Source: Halorussus halophilus (GTDB lineage: Archaea > Halobacteriota > Halobacteria > Halobacteriales > Haladaptataceae). Taken from it: a stretch of DNA of 63,455 bases. Under the pieces are notes generated by a model. It had not been told where the DNA came from and searched no databases. It was given only the letters and a program-made list of their open reading frames with translations. The position numbers and the translations under genes were made by a program. The first letter of the stretch is position 1. The number at the start of each line of letters is the position of its first letter. The stretch lies in the NCBI RefSeq assembly GCF_008831545.1, contig NZ_CP044526.1:1-63455 (forward strand), in the 5' to 3' direction. Positions 6,158 through 35,574 of this stretch are shown here, piece by piece.

Positions 6158-7855
6158 TCAGGCCAACTGACGTGAACCAGAGACGGTCGAAAGGTCTTGA
6201 TTGTCGAGTATTCGGTCGCGCCACACCGCGAAGGTGATGAGATTCCACGTCAACCGTCCGTAACTCTCGACGTGGTCCGAACGCATCTGTTCGGGGACGA
6301 AGCTTGGCGCGTCGTACTTCTCGAAGATGTCCGCGAGCGCACCGTCCTCGAAGTACCGTTCGATGGGAAGCGACCCCGAGCCTTTCTTCTGACGTGTCGG
6401 ATACTCCGGAAGCCGGTGCTGCAGGAGCGACTTGAGGTGGTACTTCTGCGTGAGGTCACGTCCGGCCGTCGCACCCTGGATGTAACGCTTCTTCGGGGGG
6501 ACCGAGAGTGCACACTCTGCCATGCTCCGCGTCTTGAACGGCGTGAAGAAGCTTCGGTCGTGTTCGTAGCCGATCTGTCGCCACTGGTTGACCGTGTTGT
6601 GTCGGAAGAAGCTGAGTAAGTGACCGAACTCGGCTTGCTTGGCGAATCGGTCGCCGTTGGCCGTCGGTGTGACTCGGCCACGAACGTACTCTGCCTGTTT
6701 GCGGAAGCGGTCGGCGACGAGCGAGTCGCCGACGAATTCACCTGCGAGCGACGGTTCTGTGAAGAAGCTGAGGTGCTGTGCGAACGACTCGGCGTCGGAG
6801 ACTGGGCGCTGGAGTCTGTCGGCTAGTCGAGTCAGAGAACTGTACTGCCCCGCGACCGCGTCTGGAGCGACGTCGGACAACGAATCGGCGACTTGTTCGG
6901 AGAGCAATGGCTCCAACCACGCTGCAATTCGGAGTCCCTTCGTCCCGGTGAGACCGAAGAGGGCGTCTGCACCCTCACCGTTGAGGTACCGGTACCCGTC
7001 GTCGCGTCGGAGCGCTGCGTCGGTCGTCACGGTCTGAGCGTAGTGAGAGGGGAATCCGAGCGCGTCCACGCTCGCTTCGAGATGACTGAGGAAGTCGTCC
7101 TCGCCGACGGTGACCTTTCGATGGTCGGTGTCGAGCATTCGGCGGGCGCGCTTTGCGTACTCGGTCTCGAAGGCGAACTCCGGCGAATCGACGCCCATGA
7201 TGAACGCTGGCGAGTCGTCGAGATAGGTGTGGAGGAGCGTTGAGTCGATGCCTCCCGAGAGCATGTTCGCTGTCTCTGCGTCGCAGCCCTGTTCGAGGAG
7301 GTCGTCTAACGTCGCGTCGATAGACGCGCTCGCGACGTCTGGTGGGCAAGGATTCCCCGGTTCGAGTCGGTCAACTTGTTCTGTCTGCCATTCATCGTTC
7401 GTCCCGTCCCAGCGAAGCCACCCACCTTGTTCGAGCGCGTTGACGCGCGTCGCGTACGTTCGCGGCTCGATTGGCGCACGGAAAAGCAGGTGGTCGGCGA
7501 CGACTTCGTCGGACACCTCGCGTTCTTCGGCGTCCAACTGTGCGAGTGCGTTTCTGAAGTGGTCAGTCACGACGAGGTCGTCGCTCCCGTCTCGGAGGTA
7601 GTAGATGTCTCTCGTGCCAGTCACGCTCCGATACGCTTCGACTCGCGGTTCGTCGCGTCCCGACTCGACGTAGACGGCGGTCGCGTCCTCGGTGACCTCC
7701 GGGAGCGTCTCTCGGAGCTCTTTCGGCCTATCGGCGTCGCGTACCGCCTCTCGTAGCGTCTCGGTCTGGAGTCCAGAGAATATCCAGCGTCCGTCGTCGG
7801 TATCGACGGTCTCGGCGTCGGGGTTCGCAGTCAGAACCCGAACGTCTCGGCCCAT
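6158..7855 (-). CDS. Asparagine-synthase-like ATP-dependent amidotransferase (degenerate N-terminal domain)
   Basis: 565 aa. The C-terminal synthetase domain has the PP-loop SGGIDS (200-205) and GEGADALFG (293-301), so it can bind ATP and adenylate a carboxylate. The N-terminal third occupies the place of the class II glutaminase domain but starts MGRD, without the Cys2 nucleophile, so ammonia cannot come from glutamine by the usual route. Many haloarchaeal genomes have such proteins in surface-polysaccharide loci. In bacterial O-antigen clusters, related proteins (WbpS type) amidate uronic acids. Two more distant relatives lie at 19615 and 56035. Substrate unknown. Confidence 0.85.
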   Translation of the reverse strand: MGRDVRVLTANPDAETVDTDDGRWIFSGLQTETLREAVRDADRPKELRETLPEVTEDATAVYVESGRDEPRVEAYRSVTGTRDIYYLRDGSDDLVVTDHFRNALAQLDAEEREVSDEVVADHLLFRAPIEPRTYATRVNALEQGGWLRWDGTNDEWQTEQVDRLEPGNPCPPDVASASIDATLDDLLEQGCDAETANMLSGGIDSTLLHTYLDDSPAFIMGVDSPEFAFETEYAKRARRMLDTDHRKVTVGEDDFLSHLEASVDALGFPSHYAQTVTTDAALRRDDGYRYLNGEGADALFGLTGTKGLRIAAWLEPLLSEQVADSLSDVAPDAVAGQYSSLTRLADRLQRPVSDAESFAQHLSFFTEPSLAGEFVGDSLVADRFRKQAEYVRGRVTPTANGDRFAKQAEFGHLLSFFRHNTVNQWRQIGYEHDRSFFTPFKTRSMAECALSVPPKKRYIQGATAGRDLTQKYHLKSLLQHRLPEYPTRQKKGSGSLPIERYFEDGALADIFEKYDAPSFVPEQMRSDHVESYGRLTWNLITFAVWRDRILDNQDLSTVSGSRQLA

Positions 7856-7938: not shown

Positions 7939-8637
7939 TCACTCGTCGTCTGCGAGTGTCCGGCCGATGAGTTCCGCGGTCGCTCGACGAAGTCGCTGAG
8001 AGACCGCCGACGGCGAGATGTCGAGCGCTTCGGCGAGTTCGTTCTGTGAAATCCCTCGGGGGATGTCGTAGTACCCTTCTTCGTACGCGGTCACGAGCAT
8101 CTGGCGCTGCTCTTCGGAGACCGTCGTCCGGTACTGTTGGTCCGAGAGGTCCGGACTGTACAGTTGCTTGAGGTGGAAAGTGACGTCGTTGTCTACGCAG
8201 AACTCGCGGAACTCGACGAGCATCTCGCGTGACGGAATCCGCATCTGGACGAGCCAACCCCCGTCTTCGCTGTGCATTTCGAGAATTCGAGCGCCCAACT
8301 CCGCGATTTGCGGCGCGAAGTGACGAACGTCGGGGGCGAGTTCCACCTGATAGACGCGTCGGTCAGAGAACACGTCCACGCAGAGTTCGTCGTCGATAGT
8401 GGGGTCTTCGACCAGTGCAGTTTCGAAGCATTCGAACTCCTCCCCGCTCGCCGAGAAGAAGAGTCGGCGCTGTCCCGAACTAATGACAGACTGATATTCT
8501 GGATGAACCGTCATGTCCGGAACTTCCTGAATAGCGTGGCTCAGCACGAGGTTCGGATGCCGAAGGTGGACCTCAGCGATGAGCGCACCATCGCGTGACG
8601 AGTCTGAAATTTGTACTGGTACGTTACACGAGTCCAT
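7939..8637 (-). CDS. Bat-type transcription regulator with HTH_10 domain
   Basis: 232 aa. The C-terminal 55 residues, with ISQNELAEALDISPSAVSQRLRRA, are the HTH_10 DNA-binding domain of the bacterio-opsin-activator family. The N-terminal 170 residues are the usual companion ligand or protein-interaction domain without a recognisable cofactor motif. It sits downstream of nothing on its strand and could control the asparagine-synthase-like gene beside it, though that is only proximity. A second member of the same family is at 17124-17804. The target genes are unknown. Confidence 0.88.
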   Translation of the reverse strand: MDSCNVPVQISDSSRDGALIAEVHLRHPNLVLSHAIQEVPDMTVHPEYQSVISSGQRRLFFSASGEEFECFETALVEDPTIDDELCVDVFSDRRVYQVELAPDVRHFAPQIAELGARILEMHSEDGGWLVQMRIPSREMLVEFREFCVDNDVTFHLKQLYSPDLSDQQYRTTVSEEQRQMLVTAYEEGYYDIPRGISQNELAEALDISPSAVSQRLRRATAELIGRTLADDE

Positions 8638-9773: not shown

Positions 9774-10202
9774 CTACAAATCGAGGTCGTCTTCGATTTC
9801 GTCCAACTCACGCTCTCGAACGTCGCCCAACTGCGCCAGTCCGAGTCGGAGCAGACCAGCATAGAAGTCCTTGTTCTTCTGGAGTTTGTCGTCGCGCTCG
9901 CGCCGGTAGCGGAGTTTCAGTTCTTCGAAGGTCAGGTCGAGTTCCCGATACAGTTCGGGGTCGAGATACAGCATCTGAGACTGCATCTCGCGCGTGGTGA
10001 GTTCGTCTCCGTCACTGTCGTCTGGTGTCTCGGTTGTCTGTTCGGCCAGTGTACCTTCAATGTCGTCACTAGCAGATGCTACTTCTTCGACGTCGCTCGT
10101 TCCGGACTCAGAATCGTCGCCTTCGGTTTCAGTTTCGGAGTCAGACTCCGGACCCCATCGACCGGCGAGTTTCTCCGCTCGGTCGTCACTGTCGCCGCTC
10201 AT
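9774..10202 (-). CDS. Putative ParA partner / centromere-binding protein
   Basis: 142 aa. The first 75 residues are acidic and low in complexity (many D, E, S, T). The last 65 are helical and charged (ELYRELDLTFEELKLRYRRERDDKLQKNKDFY) and could form a coiled coil or a small DNA- or partner-binding domain. Its start overlaps the parA stop by 4 bp (ATGA), so the two are translationally coupled, as in partition operons where the second gene encodes the DNA-binding adaptor. There is no sequence match I recognise to ParB or to ribbon-helix-helix proteins. The role is inferred from position only. Confidence 0.6.
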   Translation of the reverse strand: MSGDSDDRAEKLAGRWGPESDSETETEGDDSESGTSDVEEVASASDDIEGTLAEQTTETPDDSDGDELTTREMQSQMLYLDPELYRELDLTFEELKLRYRRERDDKLQKNKDFYAGLLRLGLAQLGDVRERELDEIEDDLDL

Positions 10203-10984
10203 GCGAGACCACCCTCCTGTTCGAGACCGGCAGCGATGTCATCGAACACAGCCTCCATGTCGCAGTCTTCGTCGTGCGTGAGAATCGACCGCCCGTTCAT
10301 CATCGCGCGCTGGAGCGCGACCCGCTTTCGCACCTCGTAGATGGGCACCGACTCGCCGAACACCTGCTCGAACCACTCTAACATCTCTTCGGAGACGCCG
10401 TCGGTGCGAACTTCGTTCGCGACCAGTCCGACCGGTCGAATCTCCATGTTCGGGAAGACGATACCGAGGCTGTCGATCTGGTCTTTCAGCAGTTCGAGCG
10501 CACGCATGGAGGTGGCCTTCGTCTCGGCAGGAATGAGAACGTTGCCAGTCGCCAGTAGTGCGTTGTCCGTCAGTGCACCCAAGCCCGGTGGACAATCGAC
10601 GACGATCACGTCGTACTGGCGGTCGAAGCGGTCGAGCGCCATCCGCAGTCGCCGTTCGCCACCCTTCGCTTGTTGGAGTTGCGTCTGGGTGTTCTTCGCG
10701 GTCAGGGTCGCGTTCGAGGGCACCACGTCGAACTCGTTGCCGTCTTCGACGAGGTCACCGAGTCGGTCGATATTGTCGAGTTCGAGCAACACGTCGTGGA
10801 GGGTGAACTCGGTATCGTCGTAGGCCTCCGCGACACCGGTCGCTTCGGTCGCGTACCCTTGCGGGTCGAGGTCTACGAGCAGTACGTCGTTGCCACGGTT
10901 GGCCAGTGCCCCGGCCACGTTGACCGCGACGGTGGTCTTGCCAGTCCCTCCTTTCTGATTGGTCACGCAGACGCGAAAGGTCAT
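10199..10984 (-). CDS. parA: ParA/Soj-type partition ATPase
   Basis: 261 aa. The deviant Walker A motif KGGTGKTT (residues 11-18) with signature lysine, the switch sequence VDLDPQGYAT and Walker B IVVDCPPG identify a ParA ATPase. Such proteins position plasmids or chromosomes together with an adaptor bound to a centromere. Length is standard. It is the first gene of a two-gene operon with the 142-aa protein. Upstream, a TATA-like stretch and the palindrome CGTCTTAGACG (11048-11058) form the promoter region. The same palindrome recurs at 49.5-49.9 kb. Confidence 0.93.
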   Translation of the reverse strand: MTFRVCVTNQKGGTGKTTVAVNVAGALANRGNDVLLVDLDPQGYATEATGVAEAYDDTEFTLHDVLLELDNIDRLGDLVEDGNEFDVVPSNATLTAKNTQTQLQQAKGGERRLRMALDRFDRQYDVIVVDCPPGLGALTDNALLATGNVLIPAETKATSMRALELLKDQIDSLGIVFPNMEIRPVGLVANEVRTDGVSEEMLEWFEQVFGESVPIYEVRKRVALQRAMMNGRSILTHDEDCDMEAVFDDIAAGLEQEGGLA

Positions 10985-11152: not shown

Positions 11153-11743
11153 TTACTCGCTGCTACCGAACTGATCCATCGCCAGTACAGTAAACGCAGT
11201 CAGCGCGACGACGCCGACCGCGGCGACACTGAGGAGCGAGAGGAGCGAAAGGTTAAGCGCTGCACCACCGAGGAGGAGCGTACTGAGCCCGAGCACACCA
11301 CCGTAGTAACTGCCGCGTTTGTCGAGCATCGTGCTCTGCGCATCTGTCGCCTCGTCGTCGTCGCTGTCACCGAGATACGGGTCGAGTTGTGCCGCCTGCT
11401 CGGTGCGTTCGACGATACCGCGACTCTGGTTGTAGTTGATGATGCCCTCCTCGTCCAGTTTCGGCAGGTGCGACTGATACAGAGCGATGTAGACGCGCTG
11501 GCGCTCGTCGGAAGTCAGCGCTTGCAGAGTCGTGTCGTGTTCCCATGCAGCGACCTGCTCTGCCAAGTCTCGCATGCGGACGGTCTCGTCCGCCTTCTTG
11601 AGATAGCGCAGCGAGTCGCGCCGACGCTGGTTCTGCAGGATGTGGAAGATGTCGTCTTTCTCCAACAGTTCGTTCTGCTCATCTACGTCGCCCTGTGCGT
11701 CGGGACCGGCCGAATCCGGAGTGGAATGTTCTGTCGTGCTCAT
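11153..11743 (-). CDS. DUF7344-type winged-helix membrane protein
   Basis: About 196 aa from the ATG at 11743; the longer reading lacks acidic haloarchaeal character. Residues 25-115 are the DUF7344 winged-helix domain (FHILQNQRRRDSLRYL, then HLPKLDEEGIINYNQSR). The C-terminal 60 residues hold two hydrophobic segments, so it is a membrane-tied putative regulator. It is a close paralogue of 40665-41258, with stretches such as ITNYNQSRGIVERT-like cores almost identical. Target unknown. It opens the signalling island but is separated from the kinase by 255 bp. Confidence 0.85.
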   Translation of the reverse strand: MSTTEHSTPDSAGPDAQGDVDEQNELLEKDDIFHILQNQRRRDSLRYLKKADETVRMRDLAEQVAAWEHDTTLQALTSDERQRVYIALYQSHLPKLDEEGIINYNQSRGIVERTEQAAQLDPYLGDSDDDEATDAQSTMLDKRGSYYGGVLGLSTLLLGGAALNLSLLSLLSVAAVGVVALTAFTVLAMDQFGSSE

Positions 11744-11998
11744 TGGCCTAAGATAGTCTATAGACTTGAAAGTAATAAAGCCGTAAAGCCGTCGCAGGCA
11801 TTGCATACCGTTTCGAACGGCCAATTAGCGTGATTTCGAGAGTTTCAGGCTTAGTACATGGAAATGGAGAGTTTAGGGTAGTCGGGCTGACGTTAGTAGC
11901 CGATTACGCAGTTCCAAATCGTTGCAGACATCGTCCCGTACCGTTTCACTCCGTTTAAACCGCGAAAACCGTGGCTTCAGCGTTTCTTTCAAAATTAG

Positions 11999-13444
11999 TC
12001 ACTCCACGTATATGTCCGTAATCTGGAATCGTGCGCCACCGTAGTCTCCTTCGGTGACCGAGATGCTCCAGTCGTGAGCTTCCACCACGCGCCGGACGAT
12101 GGTCAGTCCGAGACCAACGCCGCTCTCTGCCGCACTGTAGCCACGGTCGAAAATATCGACGCGCTTCTCTTCGGAAATGCCAGACCCGTCGTCCTCGACG
12201 TAGATACCGGCCGACGACTCGTCGGCCTCGTCGATTGTGCCGACCTCCACGGTCACGTCGTCACCGCCGTGTTCGACCGCGTTTCGGAACAGGTTCTCGA
12301 AGACTTCGCGTAACCGCTGTGGGTCCGCCTGTACCGTCGCGTCCACGTCTACGACGAGGTCCGCGTCGGGGGCGACTACCTGAGACCACGCCTCGTTGGC
12401 GGCGGCGTGAAGATCGACGAGGTGAGTCTCACCGACAGTTTCGCCACGGCGAGCGAGGTCGAGCAGTCGGTCTATCATCCGGTCCATGCGCTTGAGCGCG
12501 TTGTCGATTTGGTCGAACGACTCCTCGTCACCCTCCGACTCGGCCATGTTGAGATACACCTGTGCGATGCCGAGCGGATTGCGCAACTCGTGAGCGAGCA
12601 TGCTAGCAAACTCGTCCAGTCGCTCGTTCTTGCGCTCTAGCTCTGCCTCGCGCTGTCGGCGCTCGGTCACGTCACGAAGGACGCCGATAATCTCGGTGTT
12701 GCTCTCGCCCGGCACCGGTGCCGTATTCACTTCCGCGTATCGCGTCTCACCCTCTCGGGTGGTGTACGTGACCGTGTACGGCGTTCGGGCGGTCGCGTCG
12801 TCGGCCGTACGCTCCTCTAAGTCCTCGTTGAGTTTCTCGACCGCGTTCGAGGGGAACGCCTCGATGTCGGCGAGCGGATAGCCGACGATGTCGGCGTCCA
12901 CGAGTCCGGTCAGTCGCCGGAAGGCGTCGCTGACTGCACGGATTCGGCCGTCGGCGTCGAGGACGAAGACTGGGTCCGGAGCGGTGTCGAACAGCGTTCG
13001 AAACCGCTCTTCGCTCTGCTCTTTCTCTTGGTAGAGGTCCAGCGACAAGCGACGACGTTCGAGCAGGCCGTCGATACGCGCGCGGAGTATCGCTTTTTCG
13101 ACGGGGCTCGTGATGACTTCGTCCACGTACTGCCACATCTCCGGGTTTCGGGCCGGAGACGGCGTCTGTGTCACTAGCAAGTACGGAAGAAATCGCGGGT
13201 TCGCGGCCGACTTCCGCGCTTCGAGGTCTTCGAGGTTGCGCGTGAACGACGACTCGTCCACCAGACAGAGATCGAACGCACTGTCCAGCGGTTCTCGGTC
13301 CGGGTCCGGCGTGAGAACAGTGTAGGTCGGAGCGAGCCAGTTGGCGAGCAGTCGTCGATTCTGGTCGTGGTCGACCAACAGCAAGATACGGTCGACGGCA
13401 GAGTCGGCAGACGGGCTACCGAAGGACTCCGGACCAGCAGTCAT
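11999..13444 (-). CDS. Hybrid-type sensor histidine kinase: pseudo-receiver, PAS, HisKA, HATPase
   Basis: 481 aa. Residues 18-130 look like a receiver with LLLVDHD and CLVDESS, but the conserved Lys is replaced (ITSPVEK), so it is probably a pseudo-receiver. A PAS domain follows (about 146-265; FDTAPDPVFVLDADGRI). HELRNP carries the phospho-accepting His285, and NAVEHGG, DDGSGIS and GVGLGL are the ATP-binding boxes. No transmembrane segment, so it is cytoplasmic. Its start is 2 bp from the KaiC-like gene stop, so the two are one transcript and probably one pathway with the HalX response regulator upstream. Confidence 0.92.
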   Translation of the reverse strand: MTAGPESFGSPSADSAVDRILLLVDHDQNRRLLANWLAPTYTVLTPDPDREPLDSAFDLCLVDESSFTRNLEDLEARKSAANPRFLPYLLVTQTPSPARNPEMWQYVDEVITSPVEKAILRARIDGLLERRRLSLDLYQEKEQSEERFRTLFDTAPDPVFVLDADGRIRAVSDAFRRLTGLVDADIVGYPLADIEAFPSNAVEKLNEDLEERTADDATARTPYTVTYTTREGETRYAEVNTAPVPGESNTEIIGVLRDVTERRQREAELERKNERLDEFASMLAHELRNPLGIAQVYLNMAESEGDEESFDQIDNALKRMDRMIDRLLDLARRGETVGETHLVDLHAAANEAWSQVVAPDADLVVDVDATVQADPQRLREVFENLFRNAVEHGGDDVTVEVGTIDEADESSAGIYVEDDGSGISEEKRVDIFDRGYSAAESGVGLGLTIVRRVVEAHDWSISVTEGDYGGARFQITDIYVE

Positions 13445-13446
13445 CG

Positions 13447-14907
13447 TTAGTCGTCGCTCGACCCTCGGAGTTCAGGTTGTCCGCTCATGATTCCTCGAAC
13501 GCCTGACAACGGTTCGCCGACTCTGAGACCGTGCTCGGTGATTTCGAACTCCCGAAGGGTGCGCTCGAAGTCGCTGGTCCGCTTTTTCAGCACGCCGACG
13601 GCCTTCCGCATCTCGCCGTCGAGTTCGAGATGTCGCAGGAAGACGATGTTGTCGGCGAGATAGCTGATTCCCACCTCGGTCGCTTGGAAGTCACCGCTAA
13701 TTCCGCCCACCTCCTCTACCAAGATGACGGTGACGCCCATGTTCTTCAGATAACGACAGAGCGTGTGCAGTTTTCGAACGAGTTCGTTCTCCTCGCCGCG
13801 GAGCGAGAGCTTGTAGCCGTCGATGCCGTCCAGCATCACGATGGACGTGTCGCGCTCCTCGACCTCGTTTTTGACCATCTGAGCGAACTCCTCGGCGGAA
13901 CGGTTCAAGGGTTCGACCTCTTGGACCGACAGGGTGTCGTGGTCGAGCATCTCCTTGACCGGAATGTTGACGGCTTCGCTGCGCTCGAGGAACGTCGGTT
14001 TCGTCTCCTCGAACATGTACATCACCGACCGCTCGCCGCGACCCGCCGCCTCTTTCATGAACTGCGTCCCGGCCGTGGTCTTGCCGACGCCGGTCGGTCC
14101 GCTCAGAACAGTCACGGTGCCACGTTCGAGACCGCCGTTGAGTAGTTCGTCCACCGCCGGAACGCCCGACGGAACCGATTCGAGTTCGAACTCCCGTTCG
14201 GTCTCGCTCGGCGAGAGTTTCGGATACACTTCGAGACCCGCGTCCGAAATTCGGAGCGCGTGAGTGCCACTTCGAACGTCCGAGCCCCTGAACTTGGGGA
14301 CCGAAATCGTTCGTCCGGCAGATCCACGAGAGAGTTCGATCATGCCGTCGCTGAGGAACTGGAGGTCTTCGTCCGACGACTCGCTCGTGTTTTGGGAGGT
14401 AAATAGTACGGTCGAGTCGCGCTCTCGAAGATAACTAATCAGTGAGATGACTTGCTTGCGGAACTGGTACTCGTCGGCGGTGAGATGTCGCAGTTGTGTG
14501 AGTGGGTCGATGAACACCCGAGACGGCGAAATTTCCTCGATGCGGTTCGTGATTGCCTCCGTCAGTGGTTCGCCTTCGACTTCGTTCGGGAGGAAGATGT
14601 CGTACGACTGGCCCTCCGAGAAGTTCTCGGAGTTCGGACTCAAGTCGAGGAAGTCGATTTCCGAGAGGTCCACGCCGACCGCCTCGGCGTTTCGTTTCAC
14701 TTCCCGTTCGCTCTCCTCTAAGTTGACGTAGAGGACCGTCTCGCCGTCGTCTGCGCCAGCGAGTAGATAGTTGATACCCAACAGCGTCTTGCCGGTACCT
14801 GGTTCGCCGCGAACGAGATATCCTCGGCCGGGGATGAAACCACCGCAGAGAACGTCGTCTAGTCCAGTAGTTCCGGCCGAGATTCGTTGCGGCGACCCTT
14901 CGACCAT
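13447..14907 (-). CDS. KaiC-like double-domain RecA-superfamily ATPase
   Basis: 486 aa, two tandem KaiC domains. Walker A motifs are GEPGTGKT (34-41) and GPTGVGKTT (270-278), and the paired catalytic glutamates are seen as LEES and FEET. In cyanobacterial KaiC the second domain autophosphorylates on adjacent Ser-Thr. Here the aligned motif is GISYLADN, Ser415-Tyr416. The family couples ATP hydrolysis to protein-protein signalling in hexamers. It has its own AT-rich promoter (TATA-like stretch at 14912-14940) and is coupled to the histidine kinase downstream. A close paralogue is at 17981-19462. Confidence 0.92.
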   Translation of the reverse strand: MVEGSPQRISAGTTGLDDVLCGGFIPGRGYLVRGEPGTGKTLLGINYLLAGADDGETVLYVNLEESEREVKRNAEAVGVDLSEIDFLDLSPNSENFSEGQSYDIFLPNEVEGEPLTEAITNRIEEISPSRVFIDPLTQLRHLTADEYQFRKQVISLISYLRERDSTVLFTSQNTSESSDEDLQFLSDGMIELSRGSAGRTISVPKFRGSDVRSGTHALRISDAGLEVYPKLSPSETEREFELESVPSGVPAVDELLNGGLERGTVTVLSGPTGVGKTTAGTQFMKEAAGRGERSVMYMFEETKPTFLERSEAVNIPVKEMLDHDTLSVQEVEPLNRSAEEFAQMVKNEVEERDTSIVMLDGIDGYKLSLRGEENELVRKLHTLCRYLKNMGVTVILVEEVGGISGDFQATEVGISYLADNIVFLRHLELDGEMRKAVGVLKKRTSDFERTLREFEITEHGLRVGEPLSGVRGIMSGQPELRGSSDD

Positions 14908-14957
14908 TGTTGTATGTTTAAATATTATTGTATATATCGCTTCGGATACAGTGAGCG

Positions 14958-15560
14958 TTACCGTCCTTCGTGGAACTCCGCCCGGAGGTCCTCGTCGTCG
15001 AGGCCAGTCGCTGTACTCGACAAGTGTTCTCTGAGTTCCGCCAACTGCGACTGTAGTTTCGCGTACTCCTCGTTGGCTTCCAAGTCCTCACGACTCTTCT
15101 TCGCTTCGAGGGCCGCCTTCTTGGTCGCGAGCGAGAGGAACTGCTGCATCTGGGAGTCGTACGTCGTTCGGCGGAGTAGCGTCTCGACCGTCTCGCGAAG
15201 CTCGTCGGCTTCCGAGACGGGTTTTTCGAGGTAGGCGTCGAAACCGAGTTCGAGGATGTCGAAGTCGGGTTCGACTGCCGAGACGAGCGCGACGCGACAG
15301 CCGAGGTCTTGCTCGTGTATCTCGGTGAGTACGTCCTCACCGGAGAGGTCGGGCATCCGCCTGTCTAGCAACACGACGTCCACGGTGTCGTCGAGTTCGT
15401 CGAGTGCTTCGGAACCGCTGTAGGCAGTCCGAACCTCGTAGTCGTTCTCTAACCACTGTGCGTACGCGTCCGTTATCGGTTGCTCGTCGTCAACGATGAG
15501 CACCGTCGGTTCGTCGGACTCCGCTCCGATTTCTCCTCCGCTTTGCACTGATTCACTCAT
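14958..15560 (-). CDS. Response regulator: receiver plus HalX domain
   Basis: 200 aa. Residues 17-120 are a complete receiver: acidic pair in LIVDDEQ, phospho-acceptor Asp66 in LLDRRMPD, and Lys113 in LEKPVSE. The C-terminal 70 residues are the charged helical HalX domain, a haloarchaeal output module of unknown partner and with no DNA-binding motif. It lies 50 bp upstream of the KaiC-like/histidine-kinase pair on the same strand. His285 of that kinase is the natural phosphate donor (inference). Confidence 0.92.
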   Translation of the reverse strand: MSESVQSGGEIGAESDEPTVLIVDDEQPITDAYAQWLENDYEVRTAYSGSEALDELDDTVDVVLLDRRMPDLSGEDVLTEIHEQDLGCRVALVSAVEPDFDILELGFDAYLEKPVSEADELRETVETLLRRTTYDSQMQQFLSLATKKAALEAKKSREDLEANEEYAKLQSQLAELREHLSSTATGLDDEDLRAEFHEGR

Positions 15561-15652
15561 TGTGGGACTCCAGCGACTGTGTTTCGTTGTCCTCCGCTCG
15601 CCAACTCTCGCGACGAACAGGCGTCCATTCGTTTGTCATTTGGCCTCATCAG

Positions 15653-16774
15653 TCAGTCCAGCTCCTTTTCGAACGGCGATTTAGTCGATTCCGGTTCGTA
15701 GCCACTCAAGAAGACGAGGTTGCCCCGACCGACTTGAACGCGGGTGATGAGACCCTTGTCCTCCATCTTCGAGAGCTTCCGACTGACCGTCGATTTCGAC
15801 CAGTCGGTCTCGTCGGTAACGTCGGTCTGTTTCATCCGGCCACCGTACTGCGTGAGTAGTTCCCGGATGCGGTCCTCGTCGGTGAGCATCGCGTCCTCCG
15901 GGAGGTCGCTGAACTCACTGTCGGGACCCGAAACGTCGTCGTTTCCAGCCGCTGGGGCGTTCGTCGGCGGCGACCCGACCGTTGAGTCGGATTCGTCGCC
16001 GGCCGTCTCGGCGGTGTTCGCGTCGTCTGACTCCGAAGAACTGGAGAACAGCCCTGTCAGTGAGTTTCGAACCGCGGAAAACAGCCCACCGTCCGAATCG
16101 TCCCCAGCCGTTTCTGTCTCGTGCGATTGGGCGTGGTCGCTCGTCGCACTTCGGTCGCCGTACGTCTCTTTGACCGACCACTCGTCCTCGTCGGCGGACA
16201 CTTCGACGACGGCGTCGAACAGCGTCTTCAGCGTGTTGACGGTCTCGGCGTCGTGGATGTCCGGGTCCATGTGGTAGTAGCCGACTGCGTCCGCAGACTG
16301 CACACGGTGAGTGAGGATGTGCAAGTAGCGGAACGCAGTGTCGAAATCGACGTACTCCAGCAGGATAGACAAGGTCTGGACGGAAATGACAGCCTGATCG
16401 TCGTTCGTCTGCCACCGCGTAAGCTGTTCGCTCAGCGGTGCGATGATGTCCATCGGCTGGTTCGGATCGACTCGTGCGACGGTCGTGTCGGGTGGTAACG
16501 CTTCAGTGTTCGTCTCGTCTGCGTCCGTCTGAACCTTGTTCGCGTGGATGAACGCCAACTCGGCAGGAAGCGTCTCCATATGTGCGTTCCAGTCCGATAT
16601 CCACGTCTCCGGCGGTGGCGTGTACGTCACTGCGGCGACGTTCGTCTGCTCCGGCGGCGTCGTCGCTGTCAGTAGCTCTAAACACGCCCGATTACCAGTC
16701 GGCGTCAACGGTGCTAGCAGGAGTACGTTCGAAGCACGTTCGAGTTGCCTCCTGTCCGATGTATCGATGTTCAT
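15653..16774 (-). CDS. DUF7504-like domain fused to C-terminal winged helix
   Basis: 373 aa. The N-terminal 200 residues resemble a KaiC/RecA fold that has lost its Walker A (LLLAPLTPTGNRAC where a P-loop would be), as in haloarchaeal DUF7504 proteins. A long acidic Ser-rich linker (about 205-300) leads to a winged helix of MarR/IclR style (ELLTQYGGRMKQTDVTDETDWSKSTVSRKLSKMEDKGLI). It is likely a DNA-binding regulator whose N-terminal part may dock on the active KaiC-like hexamers nearby (inference). Same strand as the kinase operon, 92 bp upstream of the response regulator. Confidence 0.82.
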   Translation of the reverse strand: MNIDTSDRRQLERASNVLLLAPLTPTGNRACLELLTATTPPEQTNVAAVTYTPPPETWISDWNAHMETLPAELAFIHANKVQTDADETNTEALPPDTTVARVDPNQPMDIIAPLSEQLTRWQTNDDQAVISVQTLSILLEYVDFDTAFRYLHILTHRVQSADAVGYYHMDPDIHDAETVNTLKTLFDAVVEVSADEDEWSVKETYGDRSATSDHAQSHETETAGDDSDGGLFSAVRNSLTGLFSSSSESDDANTAETAGDESDSTVGSPPTNAPAAGNDDVSGPDSEFSDLPEDAMLTDEDRIRELLTQYGGRMKQTDVTDETDWSKSTVSRKLSKMEDKGLITRVQVGRGNLVFLSGYEPESTKSPFEKELD

Positions 16775-17123
16775 TCGTTGTTGTGCAGTATCGCCAGTTG
16801 TTTCCCCAATTTTGAAAGATGGTGCCGAGTAGTAGGATATATATCCATCGCGAGTATTAATCTATTGCTGTTTCGGGAGGGCAGTCAGTATGTGTTTAAT
16901 CGTCGCGAGGTAGCGTGGCGTTGCCGGGTCACTCCGACCGCCTCCGTACCGTCACGACGCACCCTTCCATCCGCAACGTGATTTGGCACCATCCTCAAAC
17001 GTACTTTCTCCGAGAGACTTTCAGTAGGAAAAAGAGACCGGGGGCATATAAAAGCGAGGCAGTATCACTCACGGCTATTATAAATACACGGCCGAACCGT
17101 CTGAATCTCAATTAATAGAGTGG
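16775..17123. other. Spacer, promoters only
   Basis: No gene seen. It holds TATA-like stretches, for example GATATATATCC near 16838, which would serve the DUF7504/winged-helix gene, and others near 17045 and 17080 that could start transcripts in either direction. Confidence 0.5.
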
Positions 17124-17804
17124 TCAGTCACTATTTGCTAGTGAATTTCCATTTTTGGCCGTCTTGTGGAGGAGCGTGTTCTCGATGAGGTTGTTGTGTC
17201 CCCGGCGGAGACGGGTCGAGAGTGCGTTCGGGGAGATGTCGAGGTCGTTGGCGAGTTCTTCGAGCGTGACTCCACGCGGGACCGAGAAGTACTGGGATTC
17301 TGCTGCCACAGTCAGGGCTTCGTGCTGTTTCTCGGTGACGTCGTACTTCCCGACTGCTTCGGGATTGCGAGACTCGTAGAGCCGTGAGAGGTCGAATTCG
17401 AGACCGTAGGTCGCACAGAAGTCGTGGAACTTCGAGAGCGACTCTTCTTCGGGGAACAACGCACGAAGTTCCCACCCGTCTGCGGTCCCTTGGGCGGTGA
17501 GAATCGTCGCCTCCGTCTCGGAGATGGCGAACGAGATGCCGCTGTTGTTGTCGTTCCACGACGCCCGATAGAAGCGCTTGTCGTCGTGTTCTTCGAGCGT
17601 ACCGATGCTATCGACCGTTGAGTCGGTCTCCATCGCTGCTTCGAACGCCTCGAAGTTCGTTCCAACTGCCCAGAAGTACGGCGTGATTTCTCGCTCGTCG
17701 GCGACGACGCGTTCGACTTCGATTCCGACCTCTGGGACGGTCTTCAGTGCTGTGCCGAGCAGGAACTTCTCCGCTGGGACACTGAACTCGGCTAGGATGC
17801 TCAT
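17124..17804 (-). CDS. Bat-type transcription regulator with HTH_10 domain
   Basis: 226 aa. The C-terminal domain (PRGVTLEELANDLDISPNALSTRLRRG, cut short here) is HTH_10. The N-terminal 150 residues are the family's variable sensing part. It is paralogous to 7939-8637, sharing the order 'L-G-F-DL--LY' then 'T-KQ-E-L--A-E--Y--PRG'. It is divergent from the KaiC-like gene at 17981, with a shared 176-bp promoter region, which suggests it may regulate that gene (inference from position). Confidence 0.88.
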   Translation of the reverse strand: MSILAEFSVPAEKFLLGTALKTVPEVGIEVERVVADEREITPYFWAVGTNFEAFEAAMETDSTVDSIGTLEEHDDKRFYRASWNDNNSGISFAISETEATILTAQGTADGWELRALFPEEESLSKFHDFCATYGLEFDLSRLYESRNPEAVGKYDVTEKQHEALTVAAESQYFSVPRGVTLEELANDLDISPNALSTRLRRGHNNLIENTLLHKTAKNGNSLANSD

Positions 17805-17980
17805 TAGTGAAGTGTACGATACTAAAGTAGATAAGGTTAGGTTTCGTTTCGTCGTTTGTTCTACGTTGAGCTGAACTTAGGCCGGTGTTATAAAATTTCG
17901 AGTACACTTCGTAGTGGAGCGATACACCTTGGGGTTTTATTATCGAACCGTCTGATGGGTCGATACGTAAGTTCCGTAGC

Positions 17981-19462
17981 ATGAGCGGGCGTTTCCCAGA
18001 GCGAATCTCGACCGGTACGGAAGGGTTGGACGATATCCTCCAAGGTGGTCTCGTCCCGAACAGGAGTTATCTCGTTCGGGGCGACCCTGGAACTGGCAAG
18101 ACCATCCTCGGTCTGAACTTTCTGACCGCGAAGCGCGAAGACGAGACCGCGCTCTACGTCAACCTCGAAGAGACGGAGGAAGACATCAGAACCAACGCCG
18201 CTTCCGTCGGCATCGATATCGGCGACGTCGAGTTTTTAGACCTCTCTCCCGAGTCACAGGTGTTCTCGCAAGACCAGTCCTACGACATCTTCGCTCCCGA
18301 CGAAGTCGAACAGGACCCACTGACCACCAAGATTACCGACCGCGTCGAAGCGCTCTCGCCCGACCGAGTGTTCATCGACCCGCTGACGAAGTTACGGTAT
18401 CTCACGGCCGACGAGTACCAGTTCCGCAAGCAGGTCATCTCGTTCATGCAGTATCTCCGCGAGCGAGGGGCGACGGTGCTGTTCACCTCCCAGAACACGA
18501 GCGAGTCGTCGGACGAAGACCTCCAGTTCCTCAGCGACGGTATGATAGAACTCGCGCGCGACAGCAGTGGCCGAACGATTTCGGTGCCCAAGTTCCGTGG
18601 CTCTGGAACGCAGAGCGGGACCCACTCGCTGTCCATCGGCGACGACGGCATTCGAGTGTATCCCGAGATACAACCCGAAAAACACGACAGCGAGTTCGTC
18701 TCAGAGCCGCTGTCGTCGGGCGTTCCACAGATAGACGACCTGCTCGGTGGCGGGTTAGAGCGCGGAACCATCACCATCATCAGCGGACCGACCGGTGTCG
18801 GAAAGACGACCACCGGGTCGCAGTTCGTGAAGGAAGCGGCTGGACGTGGGGAGCGGTCGGTGATGTACATGTTCGAGGAGACGAAACCGACGTTCCTCGA
18901 ACGCAGCGAAGCCGTCAACATTCCCGTCGAAGAGATGTTGGGCCAAGAGGTGCTCTCCGTACAGGAGGTCGAACCGCTGAACCACTCTGCGGAGGAGTTC
19001 GCCCAGATGGTCAAGAGCGAAGTCGAGGAGAACGATACCGACATCGTGATGCTGGACGGCATCGACGGCTACAAGCTTGCGCTCCGCGGCGAGGAGGACA
19101 ACCTCGTCCGGAAACTGCACTTGCTCGGTCGCTACCTGAAGAATATGGGCGTCACCGTCATCCTGGTGGACGAAACGGCGGGCGTCACGGGCGAGTTCCG
19201 TGCGACCGACTCCGGCATCAGCTACCTCGCGGACAACATCGTCGTCCTTCGGCACATGGAAGTGCAAGGTGAACTTCGGAAAGCCATCGGCGTGCTGAAA
19301 AAGCGGACCAGCGACTTCGAGCGCACCCTACGAGAGTTCGAGATTACCGAACACGGTCTCACGGCCGGGGAGCCGTTGACAGAGCTTCAAGGCGTTCTCA
19401 GCGGAACGCCGAAGTGGGTCGGCGAGACCGACGCCGAACAGAAGTTCATCGACGAGGAGTAA
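17981..19462 (+). CDS. KaiC-like double-domain ATPase, second copy
   Basis: 493 aa, aligned end to end with the protein at 13447-14907. Walker A motifs GDPGTGKT and GPTGVGKTT, glutamate pairs in NLEET and MFEET, and the same GISYLADN in place of the KaiC Ser-Thr phosphorylation pair. The two copies differ mainly at the N and C termini, so they probably form homo- or hetero-hexamers with different partners. It is transcribed away from the bat-type regulator. Its 3' end has been copied into a short degenerate tandem array (see 19445-19546). Confidence 0.92.
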   Translation: MSGRFPERISTGTEGLDDILQGGLVPNRSYLVRGDPGTGKTILGLNFLTAKREDETALYVNLEETEEDIRTNAASVGIDIGDVEFLDLSPESQVFSQDQSYDIFAPDEVEQDPLTTKITDRVEALSPDRVFIDPLTKLRYLTADEYQFRKQVISFMQYLRERGATVLFTSQNTSESSDEDLQFLSDGMIELARDSSGRTISVPKFRGSGTQSGTHSLSIGDDGIRVYPEIQPEKHDSEFVSEPLSSGVPQIDDLLGGGLERGTITIISGPTGVGKTTTGSQFVKEAAGRGERSVMYMFEETKPTFLERSEAVNIPVEEMLGQEVLSVQEVEPLNHSAEEFAQMVKSEVEENDTDIVMLDGIDGYKLALRGEEDNLVRKLHLLGRYLKNMGVTVILVDETAGVTGEFRATDSGISYLADNIVVLRHMEVQGELRKAIGVLKKRTSDFERTLREFEITEHGLTAGEPLTELQGVLSGTPKWVGETDAEQKFIDEE

Positions 19463-19614: not shown

Positions 19615-21306
19615 TCACGTCGGTTTTTCTCGTGGCTCGCCGAACCACCAGCGAAGGTCGTTGACCCGGAGTTGCTGACGTGGTGGGAGGTCTTGGACGG
19701 TCGTGGCGTCGGGGAACAGTCGCTCGCCCATCTCGCTCTGGTGGAACATCTTCCGGCGGTCGGGCCACGCCGGGTCGAAGCTGTCGAAGAACGGCAGTTT
19801 CCGGCGGGCGAACCGCTCGATTTGGTTGAGATGGTGGGAATCGTACGGTTTGTCCGGCGGCCGGTGTCGGTAGATGTCGTCGTCGAGTCGGCGGATAGCC
19901 GCTCGAACGGTGTCGCGGTTCCGCAGTTCCGGCGGCGTTCGAAGGTGCCAGTCCAGCAACTCGCTGTCGATGGTGACGAACGCTTCGAGGTAGTTGTCCG
20001 CGAGGTGGACGCGGAACGGAAGCGCAGGCTGGTTTCGAATGATGAGTACGTCCATCAGGTTGTGGACCGAGTCCGCGCGCGACCAACACCTACGAAGCTC
20101 CGACCGGAGGCTGTCTTCGAGGAACGCTTCGGGGTCGGCGATTTCGAGGTCCGCGTCGAAGCCGAGACTGTCGAGCGCTGGCGTCACGCAGTCAGCGAGT
20201 CGGTCGCTCCCGTCGGGGAGGAAACCGAGCGTGTCCAACAGCGAATCGATGGGTCGAGGGTTGTCGTCGAGGCGCTTGAGTGGAATCTCTAATCCGAGAA
20301 CGTCGAGCGTCTCCTCTTGCAGGAAATATCCCTTGAACAGCGTGTCGTACAGTAATCCGTGGTACATCGTATCGAGTTCGATGTCCACGTCGTAGGCGGC
20401 GTGGTGGATGTGCAGCGACTCTTTGATGCCCTGGGAGTACCGGACTTTCTCGCCCGCGGCGAACAGATACCGGCGGCACGGTTCCAGTATCTCGTGGTCC
20501 GAGCCGTACTGCTCGGCCAACCGCTCGGCGACATCTACCTCCTGTGAACCGGCGCGGCCGAGGGTGTAGCACCGCTCGATGTCCGGAATTTGGGAGAGCA
20601 GCGTCCGAGAGTCCTGACCCGCAGACAGCAACAGCCCCTTCGTTCCGGGGTAGTGCGAACGGCGGGCGATGGCACTCCGAAGTCGGTCGGCGAGTTCGCC
20701 GACGTGGTCGAATTCGTCGGCGTCGCACGGGTCGTAGACGAACCGGTCGAGTTCGGCCGTCTCTGCCGGAGTGAGATAGCCGTCGAACGGTACGCGGCGA
20801 ATCTGGTCGAAGACAGTTCGCTCCCCGAGTACCGTCCCGAGGTGGAGAAATTCGAGCAGTGCGTGCCGGTCCACCGATGGCTCGTCGAGTATCGACCGGA
20901 GCGAACCGATGTCCGAGCCGAACGTTCGGACGCCGGTGGCGTCGGTGTAGAAGCACTCCCAAGAGCGAATCGGGTCAGTAGCGACGACGGCGTCGCCCTC
21001 GTAGTCCACGCACGCCAAGTACGACCCGTTCAGTTCCGAGAATGCTGCTCGACCGTCCTGCGCGTATCGCTCGAAGAACCACTCGGCAGTGTCCGCGACA
21101 CCATCAGCCGCGGAGAACGCCTCGCCCCAGACGAGACAACACCCGCGCTCGTCTTCGTAGACCGCGCTCCGACCCGGAATACCGAGTGCTGGGTCACGGA
21201 CGGCGACGGTCATCGAAGGGCCGGAGACGACGGCGTCGAATGCCCGTTCTGTCCGAATTTCCGATAAATCTGTGTCACCAAAGACGCCGAATATCTCCTT
21301 GTTCAT
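19615..21306 (-). CDS. Asparagine-synthase-like protein, degenerate at both active sites
   Basis: 563 aa. The N-terminal domain keeps the fold of class II glutaminases (DPIRSWECFYTDATGVRTFGSD) but begins MNKEIFGVFG, without Cys2. The synthetase P-loop is SAGQDS (228-233) rather than SGGxDS, and no GEGADELF motif is seen, so ATP use is uncertain. It is a close paralogue of 56035-57723, whose loop is intact (SGGYDS). The family is typical of surface-polysaccharide loci. It could be a divergent carboxylate amidase or a regulatory or structural subunit. Convergent with the KaiC-like gene. Confidence 0.82.
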   Translation of the reverse strand: MNKEIFGVFGDTDLSEIRTERAFDAVVSGPSMTVAVRDPALGIPGRSAVYEDERGCCLVWGEAFSAADGVADTAEWFFERYAQDGRAAFSELNGSYLACVDYEGDAVVATDPIRSWECFYTDATGVRTFGSDIGSLRSILDEPSVDRHALLEFLHLGTVLGERTVFDQIRRVPFDGYLTPAETAELDRFVYDPCDADEFDHVGELADRLRSAIARRSHYPGTKGLLLSAGQDSRTLLSQIPDIERCYTLGRAGSQEVDVAERLAEQYGSDHEILEPCRRYLFAAGEKVRYSQGIKESLHIHHAAYDVDIELDTMYHGLLYDTLFKGYFLQEETLDVLGLEIPLKRLDDNPRPIDSLLDTLGFLPDGSDRLADCVTPALDSLGFDADLEIADPEAFLEDSLRSELRRCWSRADSVHNLMDVLIIRNQPALPFRVHLADNYLEAFVTIDSELLDWHLRTPPELRNRDTVRAAIRRLDDDIYRHRPPDKPYDSHHLNQIERFARRKLPFFDSFDPAWPDRRKMFHQSEMGERLFPDATTVQDLPPRQQLRVNDLRWWFGEPREKPT

Positions 21307-29073: not shown

Positions 29074-30255
29074 ATGCAAGCAGTGATTCTGGCCGCGGGC
29101 CAGGGGACCCGTATCCGCCCCTTGTCGGCGTCGCTCCCGAAACCGATGTTGCCCGTCGCCGACCGGCCGCTCGTCGCTCACACGGCGACAGCAGCGGCCG
29201 ACGCTGGCGCAGACGAACTGATACTGGTCGTCGGCTACGAGGCCGACGCGGTCCGCGACTACTTCGGCGCGGAGTTCGCCGGTGTGCCAGTCAGCTACGC
29301 CGTCCAGAAAGAGCAGTCGGGGACGGCCGACGCAGTGCGGGCCGCCCAAGAACACATCGACGGGTCGTTCGCGGTGTTGAACGGCGACAACCTCTACGAA
29401 CCCGAGGCAGTCGCCGAACTGTTCGCCGACGGGCCAGCCATCGGCGCGGTTCGCGTCGAAAATCCCTCGAACTACGGCGTTCTCAGCACGGCGGCCGGAA
29501 CGGTCACCGACATCGTAGAAAAACCGGCCGACCCACCGACGAACCTCGCCAACGCCGGTGCCTACGCCTTCCCGGCGGAAGCCCGCGAGTGGCTCGACGT
29601 CGGCAAGAGCGAGCGTGGCGAGTACGAGATTACGGACGTTCTCGCCCGCGTCGTAGACGAGTACGACGTCAGTTTCGCCGAGATGGACAAGTGGCTCGAC
29701 GTGGGGCGTCCGTGGGAACTGCTGGAAGCCAACGAGTGGAAGCTCGACGAACTCGAACGCGACGTTCGAGGCAACGTTCACGAAGACGCCGACCTTCGGG
29801 GTGACGTGGTCGTCGAAGAAGGCGCGACGGTCGATGCTGGCGTCGTAGTCGAGGGACCGGCACTGATTCGCTCGGGCGCGAGCGTCGGACCGAACGCCTA
29901 CATTCGCGGCGCGACGCTGGTCGGCGAAGGCGCGAAAATCGGCCACAGCGTCGAGGTCAAGAACAGCGTTCTCAGCGAGGGAGCGAGCGTCGGCCACCTC
30001 AGTTACGTCGGCGACAGCGTCCTCGGACGTGACGTGAACTTCGGTGCGGGGACGAACGTCGCCAACCTCCGTCACGACGACGAGGCAGTGAAGTTCACAG
30101 TCAAAGGCGACCGCATCTCGACGGGACGCCGAAAGTTCGGCGTCGTCGCAGGTGACGAGGCAAAGACCGGCATCAACAGTAGTCTGAACGCAGGACTGAA
30201 ACTCTCCGCAGGTGCGACGACGAAGCCCGGAGAGGTCGTCACGCGTGACCGCTGA
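29074..30255 (+). CDS. GlmU-like sugar-1-phosphate nucleotidyltransferase with left-handed beta-helix
   Basis: 393 aa. The N terminus has the nucleotidyltransferase signature LAAGQGTRIRPL with Lys in LPKPMLPVAD, then LNGDNLY. From about residue 235, hexapeptide repeats form the acyltransferase beta-helix (VVVEEGATVDAG, VGPNAYIRGA). This is the archaeal GlmU arrangement: acetylation of GlcN-1-P and transfer to UTP to give UDP-GlcNAc. A glucose-1-P thymidylyltransferase-like role is an alternative. The Thr-rich protein gene starts 11 bp after its stop. Confidence 0.9.
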   Translation: MQAVILAAGQGTRIRPLSASLPKPMLPVADRPLVAHTATAAADAGADELILVVGYEADAVRDYFGAEFAGVPVSYAVQKEQSGTADAVRAAQEHIDGSFAVLNGDNLYEPEAVAELFADGPAIGAVRVENPSNYGVLSTAAGTVTDIVEKPADPPTNLANAGAYAFPAEAREWLDVGKSERGEYEITDVLARVVDEYDVSFAEMDKWLDVGRPWELLEANEWKLDELERDVRGNVHEDADLRGDVVVEEGATVDAGVVVEGPALIRSGASVGPNAYIRGATLVGEGAKIGHSVEVKNSVLSEGASVGHLSYVGDSVLGRDVNFGAGTNVANLRHDDEAVKFTVKGDRISTGRRKFGVVAGDEAKTGINSSLNAGLKLSAGATTKPGEVVTRDR

Positions 30256-34344: not shown

Positions 34345-35574
34345 TTATTCGTCGGCGTAGTAGTCAGAGAGCGACTCGTGAACGCCAATCGAATCTATTG
34401 TCTCCTTCAACGCAGAGACTACCAGACCGAGGTCCTGTTGGAGGTCGTATTCGAGGTACTTTCCTCCGGCACGACCCTTGTTCTGCTCGGTCACAGATAG
34501 AATCCCGAGCATACCGAGTTCGTCAAGATGGTCGCGGAGCCAGCGACCGGTGTGCTTCTCGTGGCCAGCGAGTGAGCAGATGTACTGGTACCGAGGGTAA
34601 ATTTCTCGTGACCGAACCGGCGTTTCGTCCTCAGCAGTGAGCGTTGCGAGAGCATACAAAATGTATCGCTCGTGGTCGTTCAAATCCGAGATACCCTCCT
34701 CGATTTCTTTTCTTTCGACACGTGCCAGTGCTTCCTCTACGTGTACCTCTTGAACGACTTCCTCGTCATCTCCACGAGCAATATCCCCTGCAGTCAGTAG
34801 TAGGTCAAGTGCATGCCGAGCATCACCTGATGCCTGTGCCCCCAACGCGGCGCATTTTGGAATCACATCTTCAGTAAGACCATCGTCTTTGAACGCGACA
34901 CTGGCACGCTGTCTGAGAACTTCACGAAGTTCGTTCGCATTATAGTGAGGGAACGAAATCGTGCGTTCGCAGAGCGAGGACCGGACCTTTGGAGAAAGGC
35001 GTTCACGGAATGTAAGATCATTACTAATTCCGATGACGCCGACGCGAGCGTCTTTGAGATTCCCGTTCTCACGGGCACGGGAGAGTTGGTAGAGGACGCT
35101 ATCTTCGCCCTTATGGATATGATCAACCTCGTCGAGAACGAGAAGAACGATGCCACCACGGTCGTCAAGTTCGCGCCACAATTTGGTGTATATTTCACTT
35201 TTGCTGTAGCCAGATTCCGAAATATGATTCTCGGACAAGCGAAGGGCATTGAGAAGAGCAATACCGACTCGATAGCTAGTTTCGAAGCCATCACAGTTGA
35301 TATAGGCAGTGGTGAGACTAAGGTCGGGATACTGTTCAGCGTCTTCTTCCAAGTTGCGGAGAAGGTATCGGGTGGCAGCAGTTTTACCCACACCAGCTTT
35401 ACCGTAGAGAAAAACGTTGTTGGGCTGTTCGCCGTAGATGACGGGTTCGAGAGCTTCGTGGTACTCGTCAATTTCCTCGTCCCGACCGACGAATCTGTCT
35501 GGAGTATAATCATCGAGAAGAGCTTCCCGATTCTCGAACGGTGTGATCGACCGTTCGAAGCTGTGAGAGCTCAT
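34345..35574 (-). CDS. orc1: Orc1/Cdc6-type origin-binding AAA+ protein
   Basis: 409 aa from the ATG at 35574; a start at 35601 is possible. Walker A GKAGVGKT (58-65), Walker B LLVLDEVDHI, sensor 1 GISND and a C-terminal winged helix (YPRYQYICSLAGHEKHTGRWLRDHL, cut short) make it an archaeal initiator. It lies next to three class B origin boxes and AT-rich DNA, so it probably drives the origin at 35575-35880. It is only distantly similar to its neighbour at 35987. Codon use is less GC-rich than around, hinting at plasmid ancestry. Confidence 0.93.
   Translation of the reverse strand: MSSHSFERSITPFENREALLDDYTPDRFVGRDEEIDEYHEALEPVIYGEQPNNVFLYGKAGVGKTAATRYLLRNLEEDAEQYPDLSLTTAYINCDGFETSYRVGIALLNALRLSENHISESGYSKSEIYTKLWRELDDRGGIVLLVLDEVDHIHKGEDSVLYQLSRARENGNLKDARVGVIGISNDLTFRERLSPKVRSSLCERTISFPHYNANELREVLRQRASVAFKDDGLTEDVIPKCAALGAQASGDARHALDLLLTAGDIARGDDEEVVQEVHVEEALARVERKEIEEGISDLNDHERYILYALATLTAEDETPVRSREIYPRYQYICSLAGHEKHTGRWLRDHLDELGMLGILSVTEQNKGRAGGKYLEYDLQQDLGLVVSALKETIDSIGVHESLSDYYADE

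Follow-up and report, generated by a model that had tools for sequence, protein, structure and literature searches.

KaiC Systems and Their Known Partners

KaiC-like ATPases were reportedly described as signalling hubs of Archaea by Makarova, Galperin and Koonin in mBio in 2017. In archaeal neighbourhoods of this hub, kinases, receivers, helix-turn-helix proteins and inactive KaiC domains are reportedly linked with KaiC-family ATPases, and the same is found in the haloarchaeon Halorussus halophilus, where a 63,455-base stretch of DNA (hereafter the window), which is the entire contig C4 of a four-contig, 4.45-Mb genome, carries an island of KaiC-linked kinase, receiver and transcription factor genes at positions 11,999 to 19,462. 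The hub concept itself is already known; found here beyond it are a pseudo-receiver domain as candidate partner of tandem KaiC, its three fusion states, its co-occurrence with KaiC, and a core of DUF7504 and HalX proteins. Neither the rule that the pseudo-receiver follows KaiC nor the DUF7504-HalX core was found in the literature searched, which did not extend to the text of the 2017 paper. We read the island, with a confidence just short of even, as a plasmid-borne signalling set of two haloarchaeal modules that works as proposed in the closing section.

Like the kinase of the window, cyanobacterial CikA has a pseudo-receiver, and a 2025 review states that the CikA domain binds KaiB, and that the pseudo-receiver of KaiA binds quinones and affects KaiC stimulation (PMC12632262). 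SasA has an N-terminal KaiB-like domain of the thioredoxin type (PMC5520375), and would by this description differ from the window kinase, whose N terminus is predicted to be of receiver fold. Cyanobacterial output has KaiB, whereas none scored over the cut-off here, and in contrast to RpaA-type output the window regulator ends in HalX, a putative DNA binder. In KaiA and KaiA3 a receiver-like domain works with KaiC, as we propose for the haloarchaeal domain, and KaiA3 is encoded together with kaiB3 and kaiC3 (PMC11372060). Unlike KaiA and KaiA3, the pseudo-receiver here comes as part of a kinase, as part of a BAT regulator or solo; Pfam gave no KaiA C-terminal domain in the single proteins scanned, no other search being aimed at it.

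In Haloferax volcanii, the only double-Walker Cir protein is encoded next to a kinase gene, as cirC-fixL (PMC3941300). Haloferax sulfurifontis has a KaiC-kinase pair (locus L043) like cirC-fixL, with a pseudo-receiver in the kinase, and we infer that cirC is the ortholog. The authors of the 2025 review stated that no publication on what archaeal pseudo-receivers do had come to their notice (PMC12632262).

A Pseudo-Receiver Domain Beside Tandem KaiC Genes

The histidine kinase gene of the window (11999-13444, minus strand) lies 2 bp downstream of the gene of a tandem KaiC ATPase, KaiC-a (13447-14907, minus strand), forming the operon-like pair that a first-pass annotation, made from the sequence alone, had claimed. 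The kinase carries PAS, HisKA and HATPase domains by Pfam, and at residues 15-140 (13025-13402, minus strand) a further domain was recognized by a predicted model and profile comparison. Related to this region is a receiver-like protein, solo and some 125 residues long, which is encoded after KaiC genes that have no kinase. Pfam at an E-value of 0.1 found nothing in the window domain, in the kinase-fused copy L043 or in the BAT-fused copy L042; the kinase-fused copy L045 gave only a weak unrelated match below the cut-off, and two solo copies gave Response_reg at 1e-7 (over the cut-off) and 4e-5 (below it). By profile comparison, the kinase-fused domain matched REC-HalX receivers at 96.5% (E 7.5e-10) and the solo set at 96.1%, against at most 1.3% for four unrelated sets. 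The AlphaFold (AF2) model of the window domain, built from a 17-row alignment, had a predicted local distance difference test score (pLDDT) of 89.2 and a predicted template modelling score of 0.84, and receiver-domain proteins ranked at the top in Foldseek and VIA-align, the best receiver chain in VIA-align giving Z 14.5 and a root mean square deviation of 2.6 over 121 residues. The pseudo-receivers of KaiA and CikA were not among the 50 structure matches listed per search, which has no bearing on kinship.

Residue counts, which exclude the receiver Thr/Ser position where the alignment is shifted, separate this domain from true receivers. The window domain keeps the phospho-Asp position and has lost the conserved Lys. 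The phospho-Asp is present in 95 of the 98 kinase-fused copies; the Lys is missing from every one of them, and the first of the acidic pair is always replaced by a non-acidic residue; all 10 BAT-fused copies keep the phospho-Asp and likewise lack the other two. The 18 solo copies all have both phospho-Asp and Lys and have lost the acidic pair, with Asp at the first position in one and at the second in none. In the same comparison 18 REC-HalX receivers are canonical. As modelled, the domain is a receiver fold that has lost phosphotransfer residues, that is, a pseudo-receiver.

Our survey took in the surroundings of the tandem KaiC matches listed for 243 Halobacteriales genomes, together with named loci; genes were called mechanically and labelled by profiles grown from the window proteins. 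The counts leave out duplicates (L041, L042, L047), a bacterial locus (L050) and L039, the later of two like copies; L051 and L052 were unused, and at least one listed match (G184) lies outside the survey. Single-sequence searches with two queries, one solo and one kinase-fused, placed a pseudo-receiver within 700 bp of 127 of the 150 tandem KaiC genes: 98 in histidine kinases (81 downstream, 15 divergent and 2 upstream), 10 fused to BAT, 18 solo and 1 other. A profile search found the domain beside 137 of the 150, some of these matches having themselves built the profiles. Across the 243 genomes, both KaiC and the domain occur in 136, KaiC only in 4, the domain only in 6 and neither in 97 (phi 0.92, kinship ignored). 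Within the window family (28 genomes), each of the 13 genomes with tandem KaiC has the domain (E 1e-6), and each of the other 15 lacks it. Since other kinases of the family match the window kinase only from residue 129 or later, it is the domain itself, not the kinase, that tracks KaiC. Outside the family, 116 of the 135 domain matches among those listed are no further than 6 kb from a listed KaiC gene and 5 are further away, the remaining 14 being in genomes where the KaiC position is unlisted or KaiC is absent. Within the window genus (18 genomes), the KaiC genes belong to three different branches of the tree, and each time a pseudo-receiver came with them.

Judged from these neighbourhoods, haloarchaeal tandem KaiC genes nearly always come with a pseudo-receiver, which is likely a docking partner where KaiB is missing. 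More tentatively, and with clearly less than even confidence, we propose that a dedicated pseudo-receiver docks on the KaiC hexamer of KaiB-less haloarchaea and reports its state, and that, swapped among kinases, BAT regulators and solo proteins, it may fill the role of KaiA, of KaiB or of the sensor domain of SasA. Several observations weigh against our reading of the island. Thirteen of the 150 KaiC genes have no adjoining domain, and they include the second tandem KaiC gene of the window, KaiC-b (17981-19462, plus strand), its counterpart in a same-genus genome (L053), one gene (L093) whose kinase with a pseudo-receiver stands 2.2 kb further away, and one whole clade of five KaiCs. Relaxing the threshold to 1e-25 brings up no tandem KaiC in the six domain-only genomes. 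Of 15 domain matches in the family, 7 are beside KaiC and 8 are in Haladaptatus-type islands, where the pseudo-receiver kinase stands beside HalX with KaiC elsewhere in the genome. Most DUF7504-HalX pairs of the window genus also have no pseudo-receiver kinase adjoining.

The Haladaptatus-type islands would suit an alternative, namely that the pseudo-receiver regulates its own kinase from within, by autoinhibition or ligand binding, and that KaiC has only the promoter and the stimulus in common with it. Pseudo-receivers described in print do work within kinases: that of CikA inhibits autophosphorylation and binds quinones (PMC12632262). Against this alternative stand the related solo domain next to 18 KaiC genes, the same domain fused to BAT in 10, and its tracking of KaiC across genomes, and we consider this alternative unlikely, though a serious one.

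In a separate class of KaiC genes (L110, L111, L114, L118, L119, L144 and L147-L149), a BAT regulator follows KaiC and a small DUF7344 gene lies nearby. The copies of these BAT regulators that were checked carry the pseudo-receiver, an arrangement that leads from KaiC to transcription with no kinase.

The DUF7504-HalX Pair

On the other side of KaiC-a lie the genes of a REC-HalX response regulator (14958-15560, minus strand; Pfam HalX 3.6e-19, REC 4.4e-19) and of a DUF7504 protein with a C-terminal DUF7343 winged helix (15653-16774, minus strand; Pfam 2.3e-29 and 3e-23). Orthologs of the DUF7504 protein were found in all 28 family genomes, tandem KaiC (E 1e-80) in only 13 of them. In 26 of the 28, as read by eye, the top matches to REC-HalX and to DUF7504 are no more than about 3 kb apart; in G025 a split copy is that close, and G010 is the exception. 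We examined 26 DUF7504 loci, 20 picked as orthologs and 6 already known to be near KaiC, and REC-HalX is near DUF7504 in 25 of these. Twelve loci of the window genus have DUF7504-HalX with no adjoining KaiC or kinase of this type, and six Haladaptatus-type loci have HalX and a histidine kinase with no KaiC. HalX and DUF7504, which recur mostly without KaiC, are thus the pairing that stays constant, and KaiC is an addition that some loci have and others do not. The window genome holds 17 DUF7504 and 3 HalX matches, of which only the window pair stand together.

The receiver of REC-HalX keeps the canonical acidic pair, phospho-Asp, Ser and Lys. That this receiver retains all phosphotransfer residues and the pseudo-receiver does not was counted in favour of our reading of the island.

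The N terminus of the DUF7504 protein had been suggested from the sequence to be an inactive KaiC fold, and profile comparison supports this. The narrow profile of 18 close homologs gave no match to KaiC; once broadened by 16 same-genome paralogs, it aligned with KaiC over 173 columns at an hhalign probability of 69.5% (E 4.3e-5), with controls (histidine kinase, HalX, BAT and reversed KaiC) at no more than 0.3%, the value of reversed KaiC. This alignment sets APLTPTGN against the P-loop, VISVQTL against Walker B and FDAVVEV against the stretch LSDGMIEL. A paralog on the chromosome of the window genome (L272, 305-970, plus strand) has a P-loop, GPPMTGKR, where the window protein has APLTPTGNR. 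DUF7504 thus appears to be a degenerate KaiC/RecA-like fold that has lost its P-loop and Walker B, as is the mark of inactive KaiC-like (iKaiC) proteins. DUF7344 matched the DUF7504 profile at 97.3% over 53 columns, beyond the DUF7504 part of the window protein, which is taken as a winged-helix match. No match was found between DUF7504 and PDB sequences, and single-sequence AlphaFold gave pLDDT 34.7.

One alternative is a single pathway centred on KaiC, with DUF7504 joining the KaiC hexamer through its inactive KaiC fold and serving as the hexamer's DNA-binding output. It would draw on this degenerate fold and on a FastTree tree of 148 KaiCs, where all 8 DUF7504/HalX-linked genes fall in one 25-row clade with local support of 95. 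Yet the DUF7504 orthologs of the 28 family genomes are near KaiC only in G000 (the window genome), G027 and G002, tandem KaiC is missing from 15 of the family genomes that hold DUF7504, and the constant neighbour of DUF7504 is HalX; we find such a pathway improbable and prefer two modules.

The L272 product seems to be a nucleotide-binding relative among paralogs without a P-loop. No DUF7504 was found in viral contigs, and in 14 regions upstream of DUF7504, searched for a shared operator, conservation was limited to the start region and a TATA-like element, TTAATA. The Haladaptatus-type DUF7504 islands L255-L260 and L262 lie near TFB and PadR-like genes, mostly on plasmid-sized contigs, and some of them also have ParA and a small protein gene.

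Gene Order and Genomic Setting

The genes named in the first-pass annotation (two KaiC-like double ATPases, histidine kinase, HalX, DUF7504-winged helix and bat) are all in their places by open reading frames, translations and Pfam. The kinase, KaiC-a, REC-HalX, DUF7504-DUF7343 and BAT genes run in one direction, with 50 bp between HalX and KaiC-a and 92 bp between DUF7504 and HalX, and KaiC-b runs in the opposite one. The BAT and HTH_10 transcription regulator (17124-17804, minus strand; Pfam HTH_10 1.3e-13, BAT 3.2e-10) is, as annotated, divergent from KaiC-b, across a 176-bp gap.

A histidine kinase gene is directly downstream on the same strand for 89 of the 150 tandem KaiC genes, and within 5 kb for 113. 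REC-HalX lies within 5 kb of 21 and DUF7504 of 9; most KaiC-kinase pairs have neither nearby. HalX immediately upstream and a kinase immediately downstream, all on the same strand, were found for 11 of the 150, which are all the cases of upstream HalX. The full window order (both KaiCs, BAT, DUF7504, HalX, kinase and DUF7344) recurs in one same-genus genome (L053). The island genes are therefore linked in relatives, not scattered. The claim that they form a complete pathway from sensor through ATPase to output holds up in part: the 11 HalX-KaiC-kinase cases and the whole island in L053 speak for linkage, but the modules are separable, DUF7504-HalX standing mostly without KaiC, most KaiC-kinase pairs with neither, and KaiC between HalX and kinase only in some islands.

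In the tree, KaiC-a and KaiC-b each pair with a counterpart in G027, the four genes forming two pairs by position. The wider HalX-KaiC-kinase order is present in several branches besides the 25-row clade, and so the modules were probably brought together, or transferred in combination, on more than one occasion. An invertible cassette made of the two outward-facing KaiC genes was considered and rejected, as the similarity between its arms is only 79% and the paralogs, judged by their pairing with G027, are old. On the Haladaptatus pallidirubidus chromosome the KaiC pair region occurs twice (L038, L039), about 552 kb apart with equal match scores, which is either a large duplication or an assembly artefact.

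Contig C4 is probably a plasmid, on the basis of a ParA-like gene (10199-10984) and an Orc1/Cdc6 gene (34345-35670). Plasmid shuffling could by itself have gathered regulators with no joint function, and the small replicon with these two genes and the recurrence of the island on small contigs would agree; but large contigs of chromosome size, from many families, also carry the KaiC-kinase and DUF7504-HalX linkages, and KaiC and kinase are often a few bases apart or overlapping, which makes shuffling alone distinctly improbable.

Directly downstream of the kinase gene lies a gene for a DUF7344 (PF24035) protein with C-terminal hydrophobic segments (11153-11824, minus strand; Pfam 1.6e-30); its TTG start was picked by the open reading frame tool, and a later ATG may be the true start. 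DUF7344 genes are found likewise in the DUF7504 islands L053, L071, L115, L255-L260 and L262, and the protein is probably a further regulator of the island. A second BAT and HTH_10 regulator, assigned by Pfam (7939-8637, minus strand), clusters (cluster #15) with BAT genes adjoining DUF7504 in Haladaptatus-type islands. The first-pass annotation had missed both genes, as well as the pseudo-receiver at the kinase N terminus. Elsewhere in the window, two asparagine-synthase-like paralogs (19615-21306 and 56035-57747, both minus strand) share 55% identity over 564 columns, and a third Asn_synthase protein is encoded at 6158-7855.

Residues of the Tandem KaiC ATPases

KaiC-a and KaiC-b are paralogs of 72% identity, each with two KaiC (PF06745) stretches (3.6e-75), and with Walker A and Glu-Glu in both domains. 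Both are far under the curated cut-offs of the clock-protein KaiC equivalog models, scoring 170 and 197 bits against 546.25 for TIGR02655, and 263 and 276 against 408 for NF006799. The first-pass annotation had placed Ser-Tyr (GISYLADN) on the KaiC phosphorylation pair, and this stands: in alignment to PDB KaiC chains GISYLADN falls on HISTITDT within an ungapped stretch, so that Ser-Tyr is at the Ser431/Thr432 positions, as claimed. Among the 148 distinct tandem KaiCs from the 150 genes (two were too short to align), the pair is SY in 123, SN in 13, SH in 6, SQ in 2, and SF, NY, TT and TY in 1 each. Ser431 is accordingly kept in 145, Thr432 replaced in 147 with Thr present in 1, and 138 have T at the Thr426 position; the CII Glu-Glu persists in 146 and the CI Glu-Glu in 112. 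A kinase-competent CII ring is plausible for haloarchaeal tandem KaiC from these residues. Some KaiC3 homologs have a tyrosine at the second phosphorylation site, and two archaeal KaiC3 proteins autophosphorylate in vitro (PMC5520375). Given the 123 of 148 and this published remark, Ser-Tyr is real but ordinary, and was rejected as a special feature of the window.

KaiB (PF07689) gave no match in the window genome and was over the cut-off in none of the 243 Halobacteriales genomes, 7 of which had weaker matches; Synechococcus elongatus, as a control, was matched. A timing device, in which KaiC would autophosphorylate cyclically on Ser and perhaps on Tyr while the pseudo-receiver stands in for KaiA, could appeal to the CII Glu-Glu and Ser431 counts, to KaiC3 autophosphorylation (PMC5520375), to the receiver-like N termini of KaiA and KaiA3 (PMC12632262, PMC11372060) and to the light response of the H. 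volcanii cir genes (PMC3941300), but with no KaiB over the cut-off and Thr432 almost always replaced it is very improbable indeed.

Proposed Working and Significance

The first of the two modules would consist of a tandem KaiC ATPase and a kinase with the KaiC-associated pseudo-receiver, and the second of the REC-HalX response regulator and DUF7504 with its DNA-binding-type winged helix. The pseudo-receiver would dock on a KaiC hexamer and read its ATP or phosphorylation state, the signal presumably running in this direction, and together with the PAS domain would set the activity of the kinase. The kinase would in turn phosphorylate REC-HalX, and HalX may then act on DUF7504, a KaiC fold without ATP-binding residues, by a putative contact that changes transcription through DNA binding. 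KaiC-b and the BAT proteins would be an added layer. CikA, KaiA and KaiA3 offer this working an analogy and no more.

The DNA target may perhaps be surface-polysaccharide genes, a guess that has modest support. A sugar-nucleotidyltransferase gene is divergent next to DUF7504 in 11 of the 12 window-genus loci, the twelfth being cut by a contig end, and the window has a homolog at 29074-30255 with 79% identity to the L061 copy. The region 29074-62472 of the window holds genes for this sugar nucleotidyltransferase, a GlmS-like protein, a UDP-sugar dehydrogenase, two glycosyltransferases, a sulfatase and a polysaccharide exporter.

KaiC is widespread in Archaea, and the haloarchaea searched have no KaiB over the cut-off. 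A domain that accompanies tandem KaiC across genomes and across genes is a candidate partner, and one that can be tested in Haloferax volcanii.

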